64,000 nucleotides of DNA from Gordonia humi. GTDB lineage: Bacteria; Actinomycetota; Actinomycetes; Mycobacteriales; Mycobacteriaceae. Both the position numbers and the translations under genes were made by a program. Shown here piece by piece: positions 35,484 to 50,547 of this stretch. Positions within the stretch are counted from its first letter, which is position 1; each line of letters begins with the position of its first letter. The stretch spans positions 3,844,001-3,908,000 of the forward strand of contig NZ_JACIFP010000001.1 of NCBI RefSeq assembly GCF_014197435.1. Direction: 5' to 3'. The notes beneath the pieces were generated by a model that was given only the letters and a program-made list of their open reading frames with translations, did not search any database and was not told the origin of the DNA.

Positions 35484-35514
35484 TTGCAGCTCACATGAGG
35501 CCACTCGTTACCCT
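35484..35514 (+). promoter_or_regulatory. Promoter of the jetABC operon
   Basis: TTGCAG (35484-35489) and TACCCT (35509-35514) are separated by 19 bases. Six bases then lead to GTG 35521, so the mRNA is probably leaderless. It places the operon's 5' end at jetA. Confidence 0.55.
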
Positions 35515-35520
35515 GGCCCA

Positions 35521-37011
35521 GTGCAATTCGACGAGATCGTGGCGATCCGACGCCAGAACGCGGCATGGCGACTGCTGCGCGCCGACAACGCACCGCTGGT
35601 CCTGTCGTTCCTGGGGCGGGTCTTCGTCGATGACAACATCCGCGAGATCTCCGAGTCCGGTCTGGTCAGCCTGCTCGACGACGAGTTGTACACGCTCAAC
35701 CAGAAGCTGGGTGAGGGCGCCTTCCCGCGGTCGCCGAAGGCTTATCTCGACGAGTGGGCTGCTCCGTCGGCCGGCTGGCTGCGAAAGTATTACGTCATCG
35801 ACAGCGACGAACCGCACTACGATGCGACCCCCGCCGTCGAGCGGGCCGTGGCGTGGGTCCGTTCGCTCCGCGAACGCGACTTCGTCGGCACCGAGTCGCG
35901 GCTCAACACCGCGTTCGACCTCCTCCGTCAGATGGTCTACGGCACCAACACCGATCCCGAGATCCGGCTGGCCGAGTTGGAGCGTCGTCGCGCCGAGATC
36001 GACTCCGAGATCGCCTCGGTGCGGCGCGGCGAGGTCAGCGTCCTCGACGCGACTCGGCGGAGGGACCGCTACCAGCAGTTCGGCGAGGTGTCGCGTGCGC
36101 TGCTGTCGGACTTCCGCGAAGTCGAGGCCAACTTCCGGGCCCTCGACCGGCAGATGCGCGAGCGCATCGCCACCTGGCGGGGAACCAAGGGCGAACTCCT
36201 CGACGAGGTGGTCGGCAGTCGCACGATGATCGCCGACTCCGATCAGGGGCGCAGCTTCCAGGCGTTCTACGATCTGTTGCTGTCGGCCGACCGACTCGAC
36301 GAACTCGACGAACTCGTCCGCGAGACGCAGTCGTTCGACGACGTCGCCGACGAACGACTCGCCAACATCCACCACGACTGGCTCGACGCGGGCACCCGGG
36401 CCCAGGACACGGTGCGGCGTCTGTCCGAGCAACTGCGTCGATTCCTCGACGACCAGGCCTGGCTCGAGAACCGACGCGTCATGGACCTGCTCCGCAACAT
36501 CGAGACCTCGGCCTACGCCGTCCGAGACGCGACCGTCGGCGACTTCGGTCACGAGATCGACTCCCCCGCCCCGACCGTCTCCCTGCCGATGGAGCGTCCG
36601 ATGTATCGGCCGTCCGCCACCGTCGACGTGGCCAGCGACGACATCGAATACGGTGAGCCCGAAGGTGATTCGGACGCGTTGTTCGATCAGATCCACATCG
36701 ATCCGGCACCGTTGATCGACGGTGTCCGCCGCCGCCTGCGTCGTGCCGATCAGGTGACGCTCGCCGCCGTCCTGTCCGAGACACCGCTGTCGCGGGGACT
36801 GGCCGAACTCGTGACCTATCTGTCGCTGACCGATGAGGGCTTCACCAAGATCTTCGACGAGGGCGCCGACGAACGCATCACGTGGACCGACGAGAACGGG
36901 CAGCGTCGCGCCGCCCGCGTCCCCCGCGTCATCTACGCCCGTCCCCGCCCCGAGTCGCCCCGTCCGTCCAGCGAGTCCCCCCGTTCGTCGAGCGAAGTCG
37001 AGACACCATGA
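35521..37011 (+). CDS. jetA: Wadjet/Mks-type protein JetA (DUF3375)
   Basis: A 496-residue DUF3375 protein, the kleisin-like subunit of type I Wadjet (MksF-related). The protein begins MQFDEIVAIRRQNAAWRLLRADNAPLVLSFL in frame, with the typical FVDDNIREIS and ELYTLN segments. A long helical middle (about residues 150-340) fits the kleisin coiled region. A proline/serine-rich tail of about 20 residues ends the protein. Wadjet complexes recognise and restrict circular plasmid DNA. GTG 35521 lies directly after a leaderless promoter. Its stop overlaps the jetB start (ATGA). Confidence 0.92.
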   Translation: MQFDEIVAIRRQNAAWRLLRADNAPLVLSFLGRVFVDDNIREISESGLVSLLDDELYTLNQKLGEGAFPRSPKAYLDEWAAPSAGWLRKYYVIDSDEPHYDATPAVERAVAWVRSLRERDFVGTESRLNTAFDLLRQMVYGTNTDPEIRLAELERRRAEIDSEIASVRRGEVSVLDATRRRDRYQQFGEVSRALLSDFREVEANFRALDRQMRERIATWRGTKGELLDEVVGSRTMIADSDQGRSFQAFYDLLLSADRLDELDELVRETQSFDDVADERLANIHHDWLDAGTRAQDTVRRLSEQLRRFLDDQAWLENRRVMDLLRNIETSAYAVRDATVGDFGHEIDSPAPTVSLPMERPMYRPSATVDVASDDIEYGEPEGDSDALFDQIHIDPAPLIDGVRRRLRRADQVTLAAVLSETPLSRGLAELVTYLSLTDEGFTKIFDEGADERITWTDENGQRRAARVPRVIYARPRPESPRPSSESPRSSSEVETP

Positions 37012-37607
37012 GCCGCACCGTCCCCCGCGACCAGTTGAACCTGTCGCTGGCCGTCACCTCGCTGATGAAGGGGGTCGTGTACCGCGACACGGCGGAGACC
37101 ACGTGGCAGCATGTGATCGGTCTCGCCGCGCAGGTGAGCGACTACGTTGCGACGCTCGGACTGTCGGTGGTCGTCGACGAGGCCGAGGGCTACGCGTTTC
37201 TGCGGTCCCGCACCGACGACGAACTCGCCGATCTCGGCATTCCGCGGCTCGTCGCCCGTCATCAGCTGCCGCTGCACACGTCGCTGCTGTTGGCTCTGCT
37301 GCGCAAGCGGCTCGCCGAGCACGACACGAGCGACGCGGGCAGCCGCCTGATCCTGACCGGCGAAGCGTTGCGCGAGCTGCTGACCCCGTTCTTCCCGGTG
37401 TCGACGAACGAGGCGCGGGCGGCCGATCAGACCGACACCGCCGTACGCCGCGTCGCCGAACTGGGGTTCCTTCGCCGCATGCCCGGACAGGACGGCGAAT
37501 ACGAGGTGCGTCGAGTCATCAAGGCGTTCGTCGACGCGCAGTGGCTCGCCGACTTCGACGCTCATCTGGCCGAATACGTCGAGATCGCACGGGAGGAGAC
37601 GCGATGA
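37008..37607 (+). CDS. jetB: Wadjet/Mks-type protein JetB (DUF4194)
   Basis: A 199-residue DUF4194 protein, the KITE/MksE-like winged-helix subunit that joins the kleisin to the SMC heads. Motifs are LSLAVTSLMKGVVYRDTAETTWQHVIGLAAQVSDYVATLGL (in pieces) and ELGFLRRMPGQDGEYEVRRVIKAFVDAQWL near the end. It overlaps jetA and jetC by four bases each, so the three are translationally coupled and likely made in fixed ratio. Confidence 0.92.
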   Translation: MSRTVPRDQLNLSLAVTSLMKGVVYRDTAETTWQHVIGLAAQVSDYVATLGLSVVVDEAEGYAFLRSRTDDELADLGIPRLVARHQLPLHTSLLLALLRKRLAEHDTSDAGSRLILTGEALRELLTPFFPVSTNEARAADQTDTAVRRVAELGFLRRMPGQDGEYEVRRVIKAFVDAQWLADFDAHLAEYVEIAREETR

Positions 37608-40600
37608 CCGGGCTGTTCGCCGCGACCGAGCTCGAGAGCGCGGAGTCGGCGCGCTCCGGCTTCCGGCTGCAGAAGTTTCAGGTGTTCAACTGGGGAACGT
37701 TCGATCAGCGGGTGTGGACGCTCGAGCTGAACGGCGAGAACGGCCTGTTGACCGGCGACATCGGCTCGGGCAAGTCGACACTCGTCGACGCGCTCACCAC
37801 ATTGCTGATGCCCGCGCACCGCATCGCCTACAACAAGGCCGCCGGAGCCGAGTCCCGTGAGCGTGACCTGCGTTCGTACGTGCTCGGTCACTACAAGTCC
37901 GAGCGCAACGACTCGTCCGGGTCCTCCCGTCCGGTCGCGTTGCGCGGAATGTCGAACTACTCGGTGATCCTGGGGGTCTTCGCCAACGAGGGGTACGACG
38001 AGACGGTCACCCTCGCGCAGGTCTTCTCGATGCGCCACGACAGCGGTCAGCCGGAGCGGTTCTTCACCGTCACCGACCGAGCCATGGACATCACCGTCGA
38101 CTTCGCCGAGTTCGGGACCGACCTGCGAGCGCTCCGCAAGCGACTGCGGGACGGCGGGACGCGCATCCACGAGCACTTCCCCGAGTACGGCCGCGACTAT
38201 CGGCGCAGCCTGGCCGTGCGGTCCGAGCAGGCGATGGAACTGTTCCACCAGACGGTGTCGATGAAGGCAGTCGGCAACCTCAACGACTTCGTCCGCGATC
38301 ACATGCTCGAACCGTTCGATCAGGCGGGTTGGGTCGACACGATGGTCGCCCATTTCGAGGACCTGACCGCCGCGCACGACGCGGTCGTCCTCGCGCGCCG
38401 CCAGCTCGACGAACTCGATCCACTGCTGGCCGACTACGCCAAGTACACGAGCCACATCGAGATGTCCGACGAGATGCGGCAGCGTCGCGGTGCTCTCCGC
38501 TACTACTTCGCACACAAGCGGTACGAGTTGCTCGAGGCCGAACTCGACGAGTCCAACCGAGATCTCGCCGCGACGCGCAGCGCGCTCGAGGACGTCGACC
38601 GGGACATCGCCGATCTCCGGATCGCGTTGCGCGAGTTGGAGATGCGTCAGGCCGGGTTGGGCGGCAACGACATCGCGGCGCTGGAGGCGCAGATCGTCGA
38701 CGCGCAGCGACAGCGCGAGGAGCGTGCGGCGGCGCACGAGCGGTTCACACGTCTGCTCGACGACTCCGGTCTGGCACCGGTGGCCGACCGCGGACAGTTC
38801 GAGCGACGTCGCGGTGAGGTGGCCGACGCCGTCGACGCCCTCGACGCGGAGGTCGCCGACGTCGCCAACGCGATCACCGAGCTCGTCGTGGACCGTCGTC
38901 AGATCGACGGTGAAGGACGACGCGTCGCGGGTGAGATCGCCAGCCTGCGAGACCGGACCAGCAACATTCCCGAGCGCAGTCTGCGGATGCGCGAACTGAT
39001 CTGCGCCGGAGTCGGTCTCTCGCACGAGGAGTTGCCCTTCGTCGGTGAACTCATCGGAGTCCGGCCCGACGAGAGTCGGTGGGAGGGCGCCGCCGAGCGC
39101 GTGCTCCGCGGATTCGGTCTGTCGCTGCTGGTGTCGGCCGACCTGTACGATCGGGTCTCCGCCTGGATCGACGCCAATCATCTCGGTGGGCGCCTCGTGT
39201 ACTTCAAAGTGCCGCAGCGCGTTCCGTCGAGCCATGCGCCTACTCCTCCGGCGAATGCCCTCGCTCACAAACTCGACGTCAAAGACGGTCCGTTCGCCGC
39301 CTGGCTCGAACGTCGCCTGTTCGAGCGTGCGCGACACGTCTGCGCGGAGTCGCTCGACGAGTTCCGAGACGCGGACTACGCGGTCACCGCGTCCGGTCAG
39401 GTCCGCTCCGGCGGCGGTCGGCACGAGAAGGACGATTCGCAGCGCATCGACGACCGACGCAATTACGTGCTCGGGTGGAGCAACGAACAGAAGGTCAACG
39501 CGCTCTTCACCACCGGCCAGCGGGTCCAGGACGATCTCAACCGGATCGACGCCGAGATCACCGACCTCGAGGACAGCCGTCGTCTGATGATGAATCGACG
39601 GAACGCGCTGACGGGTCTGGACGCCTACCCGAGCTACGACGCTCTCGACTGGGAGTCGGTCGCCGCTCGCATCGCCGAACTCACCCAGCGCAAGACCGAG
39701 TTGGAGCGCTCCTCCGATGAACTCGCCGAGGTCACCGAACTCGTCGCGTCGACACGCGACCAGCTCTCGGTCGCCGATGCCACCCGAGACGGGCTGCGCG
39801 ACAAGCTCTCCCGCCTGGAAATGGCTCGCGGCCAGGCGGAGCAGACGCGCGACTCCTCGCGGCTCACCGCCGCGGAAGCCGGATCCGAGGAGGCCGCAAG
39901 ACATTTCGAGGCGATCTCCGAATCGATCGGCGACGTCGACTGGACCGTCGCACTGTGCGGTGAACTCGAGCCCTCACTCGCCGAGTCGTTGACCGACGCC
40001 GCCGAACAGCACACGTCGCGCGCGGGAACGTTCGAAACGCGCGCGGTGAACCGGATGTCGGAGTTCAACCGGAGCCACCCGGTCCTGACCACCGAGCTCG
40101 ATGCCGACATCAAGTCGGCCGAGGAGTACCGCGAGTTGCACCGTCGGCTGTCCGAGGACGACCTGCCACGGTTCGAGGGCGAGTTCAAGGAGTACCTGAA
40201 CACGAACGCGATTCGGGACATCGCGATCTTCGCTGCGAAGCTCAACAAGGAAGTCCATCTCATCCACTCGAAGATCGACACGATCAACGAGTCGCTGTCG
40301 GGCATCGAATACAACCCGGGTCGGTACATCCGTCTCGAGGTGAATCCGAGCGCATCGCAGGAGATCAAGGAGTTCCGCGCCGACCTCCGCCGCTGCAGCG
40401 ACGGCGAACTGGAGATCGGCGACGAGGAGCAGCAGTACTCGGAGGAGAAGTTCCTCCTGGTCAAGGCGATCGTCGAACGTTTCCGCGGGCGCGAGGGGTT
40501 CGCCGACGTCGACCGCCGCTGGACCGCGCTGGTCACCGACGTCCGGAACTGGGTGACGTTCGCGGCATCGGAACGGCATGTCGTCGACGACGAGGAGTAC

Positions 40601-40978
40601 GAGAATTACACCGACTCCGACGGCAAGTCCGGCGGCCAGAAGGAGAAGCTCGCGTACACGATCCTCGCGGCGTCGTTGGCCTACCAGTTCGACCTCAAGT
40701 GGGGTGCGACGCGGTCACGCGACTTCCGTTTCGTGGTGATCGACGAGGCGTTCGGTCGCGGCTCCGACGATTCGGCACGGTACGCGCTGTCGTTGTTCGC
40801 CAGACTCGGTCTCCAACTGTTGATCGTCACGCCGTTGACGAAGATCTACACGATCGAGCCGTTCGTGTCGGCGGTCGGGTACGTCGAGAACCGCGGGGGC
40901 AGCTACTCGCAGCTCCAGTGCCTGACGATCGAGGAGTACCGGGAGTCCCGGAGAGCACGCGAGACCGTCGAGGCGTGA
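37604..40978 (+). CDS. jetC: Wadjet/Mks-type SMC ATPase JetC
   Basis: A 1124-residue MukB/SbcC-like SMC ATPase. Walker A is GDIGSGKST at 51-59; the ABC signature SGGQKEK is near 1008-1014; Walker B VVIDEAFGRGSD is near 1044-1055. Long coiled-coil arms lie at about 290-420 and 620-860, around a hinge region. All catalytic motifs are intact, so the protein should be active. In Wadjet, JetABC extrudes DNA loops and JetD cuts the plasmid. Here the gene is followed by a 45-base inverted repeat and then a gene on the opposite strand, with no jetD. Confidence 0.94.
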   Translation: MTGLFAATELESAESARSGFRLQKFQVFNWGTFDQRVWTLELNGENGLLTGDIGSGKSTLVDALTTLLMPAHRIAYNKAAGAESRERDLRSYVLGHYKSERNDSSGSSRPVALRGMSNYSVILGVFANEGYDETVTLAQVFSMRHDSGQPERFFTVTDRAMDITVDFAEFGTDLRALRKRLRDGGTRIHEHFPEYGRDYRRSLAVRSEQAMELFHQTVSMKAVGNLNDFVRDHMLEPFDQAGWVDTMVAHFEDLTAAHDAVVLARRQLDELDPLLADYAKYTSHIEMSDEMRQRRGALRYYFAHKRYELLEAELDESNRDLAATRSALEDVDRDIADLRIALRELEMRQAGLGGNDIAALEAQIVDAQRQREERAAAHERFTRLLDDSGLAPVADRGQFERRRGEVADAVDALDAEVADVANAITELVVDRRQIDGEGRRVAGEIASLRDRTSNIPERSLRMRELICAGVGLSHEELPFVGELIGVRPDESRWEGAAERVLRGFGLSLLVSADLYDRVSAWIDANHLGGRLVYFKVPQRVPSSHAPTPPANALAHKLDVKDGPFAAWLERRLFERARHVCAESLDEFRDADYAVTASGQVRSGGGRHEKDDSQRIDDRRNYVLGWSNEQKVNALFTTGQRVQDDLNRIDAEITDLEDSRRLMMNRRNALTGLDAYPSYDALDWESVAARIAELTQRKTELERSSDELAEVTELVASTRDQLSVADATRDGLRDKLSRLEMARGQAEQTRDSSRLTAAEAGSEEAARHFEAISESIGDVDWTVALCGELEPSLAESLTDAAEQHTSRAGTFETRAVNRMSEFNRSHPVLTTELDADIKSAEEYRELHRRLSEDDLPRFEGEFKEYLNTNAIRDIAIFAAKLNKEVHLIHSKIDTINESLSGIEYNPGRYIRLEVNPSASQEIKEFRADLRRCSDGELEIGDEEQQYSEEKFLLVKAIVERFRGREGFADVDRRWTALVTDVRNWVTFAASERHVVDDEEYENYTDSDGKSGGQKEKLAYTILAASLAYQFDLKWGATRSRDFRFVVIDEAFGRGSDDSARYALSLFARLGLQLLIVTPLTKIYTIEPFVSAVGYVENRGGSYSQLQCLTIEEYRESRRARETVEA

Positions 40979-41020
40979 CAGACGGTGGCCTCTCGGCGCA
41001 CGTCCGGTCGATTCGCGACG

Positions 41021-41065
41021 ATGGAGGTGTTTCGTTACCCGATTCGGGTGACGAAACACCTCCAT
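41021..41065. repeat. 45-base inverted repeat just after jetC
   Basis: The arms 41021-41042 and 41044-41065 are 22 bases each around a single T. Only one position differs, and it would form a G-T wobble. The arm begins ATGGAGGTGTTTCG. No T-run follows. It may terminate jetC and the convergent PPOX gene. Its length and near-perfect symmetry exceed the other terminators here. Confidence 0.85.
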
Positions 41066-41111
41066 GTCCGACGGGTGGCGCAGGGCGAGCGCCGACGGCG
41101 TGGACGCGCGG

Positions 41112-41594
41112 TTACCGGGTCTCGTCGAGCCGCTGTGCGACGTCTGCCGGGAAGCCACCCGTGGCGACCGGACCCCACCGGGTGGGTGTGATGCGGATCA
41201 GCGACTTGTCCTGCAGGCGCATCGCCGCGCGGTATTCGTCCCAGTCGGAGTGCTCGCCGGCGATGCTGCGGAAGTAGTCGACGAGGCCGTCCTCGGCCTC
41301 GGGCATGTCGAGGACTTCGGCGGTTCCGTCGACCTGGACCCAGGCGTCGCCGAACTTGTCCGAGAGGACGCACAGACTCACCTGGGCGTTCCGTTTCGCG
41401 TTCACGGTCTTCGCGCGCCCCGGATAGGTGGCGATCACGATCCTCCCGTCCTGGTCGACGCCACCGGTGACGGGCGACATCTGCGGCGAGCCGTCGGCGC
41501 GCGAGGTCAGCAGGATCAACTGGTGGCGGGTGCGGACGAAGTCCAGGAGTTCGGCGAGTTCGACGGGGGATGCGGTTGCGATGGTGCGTGCCAT
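41112..41594 (-). CDS. PPOX-class F420-dependent oxidoreductase
   Basis: A 160-residue split-barrel protein of the pyridoxamine-phosphate-oxidase-like, F420-binding type. It has VRTRHQLILLTSRADGSPQMSPVTG (substrate strand pair), IVIATYPGRAKTVNAKRN and a C-terminal ITPTRWG. Such proteins reduce quinones, biliverdin or other compounds with F420H2. ATG 41594 follows no clear ribosome site. It is convergent with jetC across the inverted repeat. Substrate unknown. Confidence 0.9.
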   Translation of the reverse strand: MARTIATASPVELAELLDFVRTRHQLILLTSRADGSPQMSPVTGGVDQDGRIVIATYPGRAKTVNAKRNAQVSLCVLSDKFGDAWVQVDGTAEVLDMPEAEDGLVDYFRSIAGEHSDWDEYRAAMRLQDKSLIRITPTRWGPVATGGFPADVAQRLDETR

Positions 41595-43277: not shown

Positions 43278-44294
43278 GTGAACGCCATGCGATCGACATG
43301 CGCGCTGTACATCGACGCCGGCTACCTGCTCGCGGCCGCCGCGACACGGGTCACCGGCACGTCCCTTCGCAGCGGCATCCACGTCGAGTTCGTCAAGCTG
43401 ATCAGCTCACTGATCGATACCGCGCAGGATCTGTCCGGTGTGCCGATCCTGCGTGTGCACTGGTACGACTCGGCGCGGAACGGCGTACCAGACGCCCGCC
43501 AGGAGCGGATCGGCGAGATCCCCCGCGTCAAACTCCGCCTCGGGCGCTTCGGCATGGACGGCGAACAGAAGGGCGTCGATCTGCGGATCGGGCTCGACCT
43601 CGTGACACACGCGCGCAACGACGCCTCCGACTTCTTCTTCCTCGTCTCCGGCGACGACGATCTCACCGAGGCCGTCGAGGAGTCGCAGGTCCACGGCATC
43701 CAGGTCAGCCTGCTCGCCGTCCCGAATCTCGAAGGAAAGCCGCACGGCGTCAGCCGACACCTCATCCGGGCGGCCGACGACATCTACACGATCGACCCCG
43801 CCGCCATCGACGACGCCGTCGTCAAGATCGAGCAGCCGCCGGTCCCCGAAACAGACGACGGGCAGCCCGAACCCGCACTCGTACCCGCGCCTGTGCCCGT
43901 GCCGAAACCCGGCCCCAAGCCCGGACCCGCGACCAAGACACCGCTCGATGTCGCCACCGCGGTCCGGCACGTCCCCGAGCCGATACTCGAACCCACCGAG
44001 GTCCTCGCGTACAGCTCGTCGACCGGCGCACAGGCCCAGGTGATGCCCGGATACGAGGTCGTCGTCAACGAGGATCTGGTCGACGGGGTGGTCGCGCGGG
44101 TCCTCGCATCGTTCCGCGAGAGCGCGACTCCGACCGAGATCCTCGCCCTCGAGCGGGACAAGCCGTCGATCCCCCGAGACATCGATCGAGCGATGCTCCT
44201 CGACGCCTCCGACGCCCTGGAGATGTACGACCTCGACGACGGTGTCCGGTTCCGTCTCCGCGCGCGGTTCTGGGAGATGTACAACGGCGCATGA
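43278..44294 (+). CDS. NYN-domain (PIN-like) RNase-type protein
   Basis: A 338-residue protein. Residues about 5-175 form a NYN domain: CALYIDAGYLL supplies the first acidic residue and DFFFLVSGDDDLTEAVEES the later cluster (SGDDDL). A proline-rich linker (PVPVPKPGPKPGP) spans about 195-225. The C-terminal ~90 residues may be a LOTUS/OST-HTH-like or other winged helix (PSIPRDIDRAMLLDASDALEMYDLDD, in pieces). NYN proteins are metal-dependent ribonucleases. GTG 43278 or ATG 43287 could be the start. Confidence 0.85.
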   Translation: MNAMRSTCALYIDAGYLLAAAATRVTGTSLRSGIHVEFVKLISSLIDTAQDLSGVPILRVHWYDSARNGVPDARQERIGEIPRVKLRLGRFGMDGEQKGVDLRIGLDLVTHARNDASDFFFLVSGDDDLTEAVEESQVHGIQVSLLAVPNLEGKPHGVSRHLIRAADDIYTIDPAAIDDAVVKIEQPPVPETDDGQPEPALVPAPVPVPKPGPKPGPATKTPLDVATAVRHVPEPILEPTEVLAYSSSTGAQAQVMPGYEVVVNEDLVDGVVARVLASFRESATPTEILALERDKPSIPRDIDRAMLLDASDALEMYDLDDGVRFRLRARFWEMYNGA

Positions 44295-47169: not shown

Positions 47170-50100
47170 GTGATGCCCAGAACCTCGTGGACCCCGCAGC
47201 AGACCACACAGATCCTGACCTTCTTCGACAAGGGCAGTCTGTCGCGCGGGCGCGGGTACGCCCAGTCGGGTCTGGTTCATTCGATCTCCTGGTCCGGCGA
47301 CACGGTGACGGGTCTGTCGGAGGGCAGCGCCGGTCAGACGTACACGTGCAGCGTCACCGCCCGATTCGACGGTGCCCGCGCTCAGGTTCGAGCTCAGTGC
47401 ACGTGCCCGGTCCAGACATTCTGCAAACATTGCGTCGCCCTGGTCGTCACCGCCTCCGACAGTGCGCCCGGACCGGCCGCGCAGGCGCCGCCCCCGCCGG
47501 CGAGTGCCCTCGAACTCAGCCGGTGGCGTTCCCTCGTCGACGAGATCACGGCCGACAAGACGGCGACGCCGACCACGGACGACGGCCCCGAACTGCCCCT
47601 CGGCCTGCAGTTCGCACTCGATCTCGACGCTCGGGGGCGACGCCGTATCGTCGCTCGACCGGTCACACACGGTTCCCGGGGCACCTGGGTCACCACGCGT
47701 GTCACATGGAAGTCGCTGCTCACGACGCGCAAGGCCGGTTTCCGCCACGATCCGAAAGCCCGGGAACTCCTCGTCGAGATCGGCAACGCGCTCGCCGCCC
47801 GCACGCAGAGATCGACGCCGCCGGCCGAACTGTCGCTGTCGTCGGCTCCGGCTCGCGTCTGGCCCCTCCTGAACCGGGCCGAAGGCGCCGGCATAGCGCT
47901 CATCGGCAAGAACGGCTGGGGCCAGCCGCAGACGGTGTCGATCTCGAGCATCACGACCGGACTGCACGTCGAGCGTGCGCAGAGGCACCTCAACATCGGT
48001 ATCCAGACGTTCGTCGACGGTGATCCGGTCGGTGCCGACCGGGTCCTCCTGCTCGGTGCGCCGAAACCGCACGGCGCGGGTGTCCTGCTCGATCGAACCC
48101 TCCACCTGGGGCCGCTGCCCGAGCTGACCGCGTCGGAGACGATGCTGCTCACATCCCGATCCCACGTGTCCGTTCCGGCGAACGAGGTCGACGAGTTCCG
48201 CGCCAGGCTCCCGGCTCTGGTCGCCGACCGCGCGGTCTCATTCGGCGACGACGTGTTTCCGCCCGAGGACGTCGACGGACCGTATCCGGTCCTGGTGGTC
48301 GACTACACCGCCGACGGCGCCCGCACCCGCTGGGAGGCGGAGTACGTCGCCGACGGCGAGTCCGTTCGCGCACGTCACGACGAACCAGCCAATCCGCACC
48401 GAGTCCGCCGCCGCGCGGACGAGAACACCATGTGGTCCGCACTCGGCTCCGAGCTCGCGGCCGTCGCATCGACCTACCGCGGCTGGTTCGACACCACCGC
48501 CGAACGACTCCTGCGAGGCATCTATCAGTCGTCCGCGCAGGACGAGATCGCGACGCTCGTGAGCATGCGTGAACGACTCGCCGAGACGACGACCGTCGCC
48601 GCCGCACTCGAGTTCCTGCCGATCAGCCAGTTTCTGCGCGACTGGTCGCTCGATCCCGTCGAGGCCGCCGTCCTCACCGGCGACGTACTGCCCGCCCTCG
48701 TCGACGGCGGACGGGTCCGTGTCGAGGTGGTCGGCGAGCCACCCGACTACCACCGCCCCGAGGAGCCGCCGGTCCTGCACTTCACCGGGGACTCGAGCAC
48801 CGACTGGTTCGACCTCGCGATCACCCTCGACGTGGACGGCCACCGGATACCCATCGCCGACGTCATCGCCGCGCTCGCCCAGGGCGAGACGCACATGCTC
48901 CTCGCCGACGACACCTACTTCCCGCTCGACACACCCGAGCTCACCACCCTGCGTGAGCGTCTGGCGGAGGCGCGTGAGCTCGGCGATCTCGACGGCGACC
49001 GCGTCTCGTCGAGCACCATGAACGTCACGCTGTGGGAGGAACTCCTCGAACTCGGCGTGGTCGACGAACAGCTCGCGGACTGGCGTGATCGACTCACCCG
49101 GTTGGCGTCCGCGAAGCCGCCCGCGCCGATCGCCCCTCCCCCGGGCCTGGACGCGCGGCTGCGCAGCTACCAGCAGGACGGACTCGACTGGCTCGCGTTC
49201 CTCTGGGACAACCGACTCGGCGGCGTCCTCGCCGACGACATGGGGCTGGGCAAGACCATTCAGACTCTGGCGCTGATTCAACGAGTGATCGACGACGACC
49301 CGACCGCGCGGTTCCTCGTGATCGCACCCACCTCGGTGGTCGGGAACTGGGCTGCCGAGGTCGCCCGCTTCGTGCCCGGTCTGGACGCGGCGATCGTCGC
49401 CTCCACCGAGAAGCGCGCCGGGACGTCGTTGTCCGACCAGATCGGCGGCGCCCGGATCGTCGTCACCTCGTACGCGTTGCTGCGTATCGACTACGAGGCG
49501 TTCGCGGCGATCGAATGGTCGGGCATGGTGCTCGACGAGGCGCAGTTCGTGAAGAACCACGCCTCCAAGACGCATCAGGCCGCTCGACGCCTCCCTGCTC
49601 GGTTCAAGCTGGCGATCACCGGAACACCGTTGGAGAACCGGGTGATGGAACTGTGGTCGCTGGTGTCGATCGTCGCACCCGGCCTGTACAGCTCGCCGAC
49701 GACCTTCAAAGAGCACTTCGCCGATCCCATCGAGAAGGGCGAGGCGCCCGAACGACTCTGTGTGCTGCGCCGTCGTCTGCGTCCGATCATGCTGCGTCGC
49801 AACAAATCTCAAGTCCTAGCCGACCTGCCGGAGAAGCAGGAGCAGTTGCTGCCGCTCGACCTCGGGCCACCTCATCGCAAGGTGTACGACACCTTCCTCG
49901 CGCGCGAGCGTCAGCGGATGCTCGGCCTGCTCGACGACTGGGAGGGCAACCAGATCGAGATCCTGCGCGCACTCACCCAGCTGCGCCAGCTCAGTCTGCA
50001 TCCCGGGCTCGTCGATCAGCAGCACGCATCACTCGAATCGACGAAGATCTCGTATCTGGCCGAGCAGATACCGATCCTGACCGCCGAGGGCCACAGTGCG

Positions 50101-50547
50101 CTGATCTTCTCGAGCTTCACCGGTTTCCTGAGACTCGTTGCGGCGCGGTTCGAGTCGGACGGCGTCGAGTACAGCTACCTGGACGGCACCATGTCGGCGG
50201 GCAGACGCGCCGAACAGATCGAGCAGTTCACCGCCGGTCACACCGGTGCGTTTCTGATCAGTCTCAAGGCCGGTGGATTCGGACTCAACCTGACCGCCGC
50301 CGACTACTGCTTCATGACGGACCCGTGGTGGAATCCGGCCGCCGAGGCGCAGGCCGTCGACCGTGCGCATCGCATCGGTCAGCAACGTGCCGTCACCGTT
50401 TACCGCATGGTCTCGACCGGCACCATCGAGGAGAAGGTCATCGACCTGCAGAACCGCAAACGCGAACTCTTCGACGCGCTGATCGACGACGGCGCCGCGT
50501 TCTCCGGGAAGATCACCGCCGCCGACGTGCGCGGGCTGCTGGAGTAG
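47170..50547 (+). CDS. SWIM zinc-finger SNF2-family helicase-like ATPase
   Basis: A 1125-residue ATPase. A SWIM finger (CTCPVQTFCKHC) lies at about 77-88. The middle 500 residues form the SNF2-associated bacterial region. The SNF2 core has Walker A DDMGLGKTIQ, DEAQ box, GTPLENRVMELWSL, and helicase_C motifs FSSFTGFLRLV and DRAHRIGQQRAVTVYR. It likely remodels or translocates on double-stranded DNA. TAGTCT at 47159-47164 lies five bases before GTG 47170; ATG 47173 is the alternative. Similar SWIM-SNF2 proteins are widespread in actinobacteria, with roles unproven. Confidence 0.93.
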   Translation: MMPRTSWTPQQTTQILTFFDKGSLSRGRGYAQSGLVHSISWSGDTVTGLSEGSAGQTYTCSVTARFDGARAQVRAQCTCPVQTFCKHCVALVVTASDSAPGPAAQAPPPPASALELSRWRSLVDEITADKTATPTTDDGPELPLGLQFALDLDARGRRRIVARPVTHGSRGTWVTTRVTWKSLLTTRKAGFRHDPKARELLVEIGNALAARTQRSTPPAELSLSSAPARVWPLLNRAEGAGIALIGKNGWGQPQTVSISSITTGLHVERAQRHLNIGIQTFVDGDPVGADRVLLLGAPKPHGAGVLLDRTLHLGPLPELTASETMLLTSRSHVSVPANEVDEFRARLPALVADRAVSFGDDVFPPEDVDGPYPVLVVDYTADGARTRWEAEYVADGESVRARHDEPANPHRVRRRADENTMWSALGSELAAVASTYRGWFDTTAERLLRGIYQSSAQDEIATLVSMRERLAETTTVAAALEFLPISQFLRDWSLDPVEAAVLTGDVLPALVDGGRVRVEVVGEPPDYHRPEEPPVLHFTGDSSTDWFDLAITLDVDGHRIPIADVIAALAQGETHMLLADDTYFPLDTPELTTLRERLAEARELGDLDGDRVSSSTMNVTLWEELLELGVVDEQLADWRDRLTRLASAKPPAPIAPPPGLDARLRSYQQDGLDWLAFLWDNRLGGVLADDMGLGKTIQTLALIQRVIDDDPTARFLVIAPTSVVGNWAAEVARFVPGLDAAIVASTEKRAGTSLSDQIGGARIVVTSYALLRIDYEAFAAIEWSGMVLDEAQFVKNHASKTHQAARRLPARFKLAITGTPLENRVMELWSLVSIVAPGLYSSPTTFKEHFADPIEKGEAPERLCVLRRRLRPIMLRRNKSQVLADLPEKQEQLLPLDLGPPHRKVYDTFLARERQRMLGLLDDWEGNQIEILRALTQLRQLSLHPGLVDQQHASLESTKISYLAEQIPILTAEGHSALIFSSFTGFLRLVAARFESDGVEYSYLDGTMSAGRRAEQIEQFTAGHTGAFLISLKAGGFGLNLTAADYCFMTDPWWNPAAEAQAVDRAHRIGQQRAVTVYRMVSTGTIEEKVIDLQNRKRELFDALIDDGAAFSGKITAADVRGLLE

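Follow-up and report, generated by a model that had tools for sequence, protein, structure and literature searches.

A jetABC operon of apparent type I Wadjet descent, retained without the JetD nuclease throughout a clade of Gordonia

The jetABC operon of Gordonia humi carries three of the four parts of a type I Wadjet system and is kept, without the nuclease gene jetD, in every member of a clade of twelve Gordonia genomes. In our comparative analysis a single loss of jetD, with jetABC retained, is well supported. As to function, we incline, by a little over an even chance, to the view that a former Wadjet has been domesticated as an auxiliary MksBEF-like condensin. A preliminary description of the locus had left three options: a nuclease-free complex with another role, a jetD located elsewhere, or recent loss of the gene. 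The first is now the best supported on the basis of a single loss, retention in 12 of 12 genomes and dN/dS values of 0.03-0.17 over seven pairs. A jetD elsewhere was for the most part undetected and the loss does not appear recent.

The genes lie in the window (the whole stretch of G. humi DNA analysed, 64,000 nucleotides) and their coordinates, with those of neighbouring features, are given in Table 1. Each junction, jetA/jetB and jetB/jetC, is a 4-base overlap. Pfam assigns DUF3375 (1e-144), DUF4194 (2e-42), AAA_29 (3e-24) and SbcC_Walker_B (2e-22) to the operon, with an MksE match to the jetB product in addition to DUF4194. The PADLOC models for type I Wadjet score 682 bits for JetA1, 278 for JetB1 and 1457 for JetC1, and chains of known structure in the PDB are matched by sequence at 1e-22 (JetA), 7e-5 (JetB) and 2e-64 (JetC). 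The Walker A (GDIGSGKST), signature (KSGGQKEK) and Walker B (FVVIDEAFGR) motifs do not vary among the 12 clade members, and neither does the D-loop stretch of JetC. Open reading frames, Pfam, PADLOC and motifs thus agree with the earlier description of three overlapping genes with intact ATPase motifs, and the JetA (DUF3375), JetB (DUF4194) and JetC expected of a type I Wadjet are all present in G. humi.

Table 1. Features of the jetABC locus of G. humi; positions are those of the window.
Feature	Position	Strand	Remarks
-10-like box TACCCT	35509-35514	+	6 bases 5' of jetA GTG
jetA, mksF-like kleisin, DUF3375	35521-37011	+	496 aa, GTG start
jetB, mksE-like KITE subunit, DUF4194	37008-37607	+	199 aa
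jetC, mksB-like SMC ATPase	37604-40978	+	1124 aa, intact Walker A, signature and Walker B
Site where jetD starts in JetD-bearing relatives	40979-41020	+	no remnant recognised in G. humi
45-base hairpin between convergent jetC and PPOX	41021-41065	.	inverted repeat, fold score
PPOX (pyridoxamine-phosphate-oxidase-like) gene, neighbour outside operon	41112-41594	-	PNPOx_N 2e-18
NYN-domain (PIN-like nuclease) gene	43278-44294	+	2.3 kb 3' of jetC; in the stretches covered, 4 of 12 clade genomes have a relative downstream

The sequence TACCCT precedes the start codon in all 12 clade members, by 6 bases in ten and 7 in two. It stands at 7 bases in the JetD-bearing relative G009, and TACGCT takes its place in a second, G026. 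A scan for sigma-70 promoters that required a -35 box as well found none. With the box at this position the operon looks leaderless, as already stated in the preliminary description. At the other end the 45-base inverted repeat was found as described, followed by the PPOX gene on the opposite strand. The arms, 41021-41042 and 41044-41065, are 22 nucleotides each and 95% complementary, and a fold z-score of -5.6 was obtained for 40976-41110. A search of the genome, allowing up to 2 mismatches, gave one other copy, imperfect, at C1:319006-319046. This near-uniqueness, together with the convergent arrangement of jetC and PPOX, makes a two-way terminator the likeliest role, and the hairpin probably acts as such between the two genes. 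A mobile repeat 3' of jetC was considered and discarded on account of the single, imperfect further copy. The sequence directly 3' of jetC varies among subclades of the 12, and the upstream side of jetABC is the better conserved. The place of PPOX is not constant in other clade members: its distance varies, it may be on the opposite side, and in some there are genes between it and jetC.

A survey of 59 Gordonia genomes for JetC and JetD_C (the search for DUF3322 covered 49 of the 59) distinguishes four kinds of jetABC. The first, that of G. humi, occurs in 12 genomes with JetC 74-100% identical and has no jetD of its own. The second is JetD-bearing, with JetC identity to G. humi of 66% in two genomes and 47-50% in eight, one of these with a split jetC (G047, locus L166, where the gene is broken into two frames). 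The third, also JetD-bearing, is 29-31% identical and present in four genomes, two of them within the 12; in one of these, G083, the separate JetABCD (C1, approximately 447-454 kb, L158; about 31% identity) immediately precedes the JetD-less jetABC on its upstream side, and its own jetC has an internal stop. The fourth, at 24-27% JetC identity, is found in 37 of the 59 genomes. A JetD query against 11 loci of this kind (L054-L057, L063, L068, L169-L173) returned nothing, and the JetD_C matches in the 37 genomes are nine beside JetD-bearing systems and one fragment. The fragment, an orphan in a 134 aa frame at G027:C1:2591900-2592268, is distant from the only matched jetC of that genome, a gene of the fourth kind, and is possibly the relic of a lost Wadjet. 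The closest named relatives of G. humi, with JetC 74-89% identical, are G. liuliyuniae, G. zhenghanii, G. malaquae, G. spumicola, G. sihwensis and G. shandongensis, the only six that the collection of named genomes yielded.

The JetD-less and JetD-bearing kinds are distributed differently. An rpoBC genus tree, built with FastTree and rooted at the midpoint, covers the 59 genomes, three of them (G014, G023 and G040) with partial sequence; it unites the 12, and no others, in a single clade (support 1.0). The first kind requires one Fitch change on this tree against a mean of 11.2 after shuffling, and the fourth kind three against 18.0. JetD-bearing systems require 13 against 12.8, with 700 of 1000 shuffles as low or lower. 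The JetD-less kinds behave like resident genes and the JetD-bearing ones like mobile defence. In all 11 testable members of the clade, G. humi included, one and the same FAD-oxidase gene is found no more than approximately 11 kb from the operon, and other neighbours are common to them as well; G023 is outside this count as its operon is on an 8.6-kb contig. Stretches fetched from eight non-members contain the FAD-oxidase gene and lack these neighbours and jet genes (the G010 stretch being 4 kb only). The comparison shows inheritance that appears mainly vertical in a fixed chromosomal neighbourhood. The preliminary description had also considered that relatives might carry jetD at exactly this junction. 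It is absent from the 11 testable members, all of which have the same neighbourhood.

How might such a complex function? From what is known of the family, JetC dimers would bind ATP and DNA, JetA would close the ring with JetB as its KITE partner, and DNA loops would be extruded through cycles of ATP. In the absence of JetD the motor would persist and make no cut, so that stalling on a circle would be harmless. What the cell gains may be that its chromosome, or large replicons, are organised or segregated, as by MksBEF of Pseudomonas aeruginosa. In the complete system, according to the accessible parts of PMC10586767 and PMC12287153, JetABC probably extrudes loops, and JetD would be activated when the whole of a circle has been extruded. 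MksBEF is reported to organise and segregate chromosomes (accessible part of PMC7485682). Counting against the condensin reading, the nuclease-bearing MksBEFG of another actinobacterium, Corynebacterium glutamicum, does not fold the chromosome (accessible part of PMC7083940). A canonical SMC is matched in 59 of 59 genomes, above the cut-off in 57 (all but G048 and G026), the best match being partial in five (G048, G026, G010, G040 and G041), hence JetABC would be an auxiliary complex. The role would be dispensable in the genus, since 10 of the 59 genomes are without JetD-less jetABC, the four of the sister clade included; seven of the ten have no jetC match of any kind.

Might JetABC still act against plasmids, trapping or condensing small circles to the point of silencing or loss, or passing them to a general nuclease? 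We regard this as rather unlikely. The ATPase motifs are kept, as are nearly all of the sites that JetD-bearing relatives conserve, and circle sensing may therefore be intact. The other contigs of G. humi, C2 (117,994 bases) and C3 (113,536 bases), are also larger than the threshold of 50-100 kb quoted for Wadjet in the accessible part of PMC12287153. Both are plasmid-sized; the first 20 kb of C3 includes stretches common to Gordonia plasmids of approximately 92-172 kb, and the best 8 of 58 matches for the first 20 kb of C2 are mostly to transposases. However, the operon is fixed in its clade, unlike the JetD-bearing systems scattered on the genus tree or a mobile defence gene. The gene directly 3' of jetC varies by subclade, which leaves no common new operon partner, and relatives of the NYN-domain gene, a putative nuclease, lie downstream in 4 of the 12 genomes within the stretches covered, outside the operon. 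Further along the window (47170-50547, + strand) is a large gene for an SNF2-family helicase, scored by the PADLOC models DpdE and ZorD. Relatives of it occur downstream of jetABC in five clade genomes, that of G. humi included, and it is perhaps an ordinary chromosomal helicase.

The nuclease itself, whether in the operon or elsewhere in the genome, is the component of a type I Wadjet that went undetected in G. humi and for which its JetD-bearing relatives are positive. The G. humi genome searched is 5.09 Mb with a completeness of 99.8%. Neither JetD_C (PF09983) nor DUF3322 (PF11795) gave a match anywhere in it, with C. glutamicum positive as control, which upholds the earlier statement that jetABC here has no jetD. 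A profile built from the JetD proteins of 11 relatives found nothing in the same genome at E values up to 1, and no JetD family member was seen in the flanking frames scanned. An assembly gap or a displaced jetD can be set aside, because the locus is inside a 4.86-Mb contig, as is the whole window, and the loci of the six named relatives (L048-L053, 19 kb each) also gave no JetD, with best E values of 0.018 to 0.69 against E 0 for two JetD-bearing control loci.

Searches with JetD_C and the relatives' profile left JetD undetected in 10 of the 12 clade genomes, G. humi among them, apart from a weak partial match to the profile in G019 (E 0.03). In the other two, G023 and G083, JetD is present. 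These three genomes are what could be cited for a JetD-like nuclease completing the system in trans, a reading that we judge to be very unlikely given its general absence from the clade and from the flanking frames of the window, and given that the JetD proteins of G023 and G083 sit with jetABC genes of their own at 29-31% identity. The relatives' enzymes look active on alignment, Glu263 and Asp306/Asp308 (numbered by the first row) being invariant in 11 of 11, which we take to be the usual Toprim metal-binding pattern. No trace of a former jetD was recognised. An apparent remnant in a first search of the flanks (best 1e-16) proved to be the last part of jetC translated in a different frame, and when queries were trimmed to start 3' of jetC the best 8 of 170 tblastn matches were all to the separate JetABCD of G083. 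A frame test of the sequence just 3' of jetC revealed nothing clear, the lowest share of shuffles that attained the score being 5 of 100, in two of the 12 genomes.

A tree of 38 JetC sequences (midpoint root; the stop-containing G083 copy omitted and G047 included as a fragment) places the 12 JetD-less proteins in one group with support 0.998. Their sister group consists of G009 and G026, both JetD-bearing (node 1.0). Next outward are the JetD-bearing group at 48% identity, with G069, and then JetD-bearing G075, at successive nodes of support 1.0. With JetD-less proteins nested inside JetD-bearing relatives, the most likely history is a single loss of jetD from a complete type I Wadjet, before the 12 diverged. 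The loss would therefore predate species whose JetC proteins are up to 26% different (11 of the 12 compared), contrary to the suggestion of a recent event. That jetD was never present, the JetD-less state being ancestral to the lineage, seems highly improbable. It would be compatible with the second JetD-less lineage in the genus and with an overall JetC root that is placed only at the midpoint, and is opposed by the three successive JetD-bearing groups around the clade. Among 14 jetD genes, with starts picked by rule, an overlap with the jetC stop is seen in 12 and measures 4 bases in 11, so that several independent gains at one junction would be needed. The exceptions, under the same rule, are G009, with jetD 1 base 3' of the jetC stop, and G010, where the distance is 76 bases.

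Values of dN/dS (Nei-Gojobori) for seven JetD-less pairs are 0.06-0.17 in jetA, 0.03-0.10 in jetB and 0.04-0.14 in jetC. JetD-bearing systems give 0.06-0.14 in three pairs of like depth and 0.19-0.28 in the deeper pair G009-G026. By this comparison jetABC shows the pattern of purifying selection since the loss. A decaying remnant of defence, which the absence of jetD might bring to mind, is scarcely credible when the whole clade has conserved the open frames, the ATPase motifs and the promoter box and keeps a low dN/dS.

JetC and rpoBC distances are correlated with rho of 0.84 in the clade (55 pairs, G023 omitted), compared with 0.65 in the fourth kind and 0.60 in the 48% group. The mean ratio of JetC to rpoBC distance is 4.7, against 3.2 and 3.7 respectively, and gives no indication that JetC evolved more slowly after the loss. 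The two trees agree at 7 of 9 splits and the AU test rejects their identity, for which there may have been some transfer of jetC, or the rpoBC tree may be weak. Sites that 10 JetD-bearing relatives conserve and that all 12 have replaced number 4 of 174 in JetA, 2 of 65 in JetB and 4 of 372 in JetC. These counts are not above those of control groups and thus give no sign of a decayed docking surface for JetD. An IFDR motif at the N-terminus of JetB contacts JetD, according to the accessible part of PMC10586767. None of the 12 JetB frames contains the motif, nor does that of any of the 11 JetD-bearing relatives compared, and so it does not discriminate here.

The fourth kind resembles the G. humi operon in having DUF3375, DUF4194 and a JetC1-type SMC with no JetD of its own; PADLOC scores JetA1, JetB1 and JetC1 on the L054 copy even though no JetD accompanies it. 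It is deeply diverged, with a longer JetB (260 aa in L054 as opposed to 199). The first and fourth kinds never share a genome, the latter being absent from all 12 and present in 37 of the 47 others (Fisher 6e-7, a value that is overstated as the exclusion rests on one clade). JetD-bearing systems, on the other hand, are found together with the fourth kind as often as expected (9 of 14 against 28 of 45). The four genomes of the sister clade are without both JetD-less kinds. As the fourth kind is absent from exactly the 12-genome clade and its sister, it is possible, if doubtful, that a former plasmid-cutting system, disarmed once, took the place of an older, diverged nuclease-free Jet condensin. 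If true, one DNA-organising machine would have been replaced by a domesticated defence system.

How, then, should the operon be classified? It has the same three subunits, order, overlaps and JetA1/JetB1/JetC1 models as type I Wadjet (JetABCD), also known as MksBEFG or EptABCD, and its nearest relatives outside the clade, at 66% JetC identity, are JetD-bearing. It differs in being without JetD and fixed in a clade rather than scattered. With JetD, the defining feature, missing it is not to be filed as a working Wadjet. P. aeruginosa MksBEF, to which we liken it by gene content, likewise comprises SMC, kleisin and KITE subunits without MksG beside a canonical SMC, and the accessible part of a review (PMC10586767) proposes for it the same origin, a likely loss of JetD. 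Both that composition and stable retention beside a canonical SMC are found in the Gordonia clade. The Gordonia lineage is separate and in another phylum, and here the loss is polarised by JetD-bearing sisters. Judged by its composition, then, the operon encodes an MksBEF-type complex of Wadjet descent. Literature on Gordonia Wadjet or MksB and on actinobacterial loss of MksG, searched by titles and the starts of abstracts with most subscription journals outside the search, contained no description of this case.

The loss of the nuclease with the other three parts intact across the clade suggests a new use, probably in DNA organisation. One practical consequence for annotation is that the presence of jetABC by itself should not lead to a label of plasmid defence. 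The value of the Gordonia case is that it is polarised: the genus also contains the JetD-bearing sisters, at 66% identity, and offers a further JetD-less lineage for comparison. Such matched pairs make the transition from a DNA-cutting to a DNA-organising SMC complex testable.
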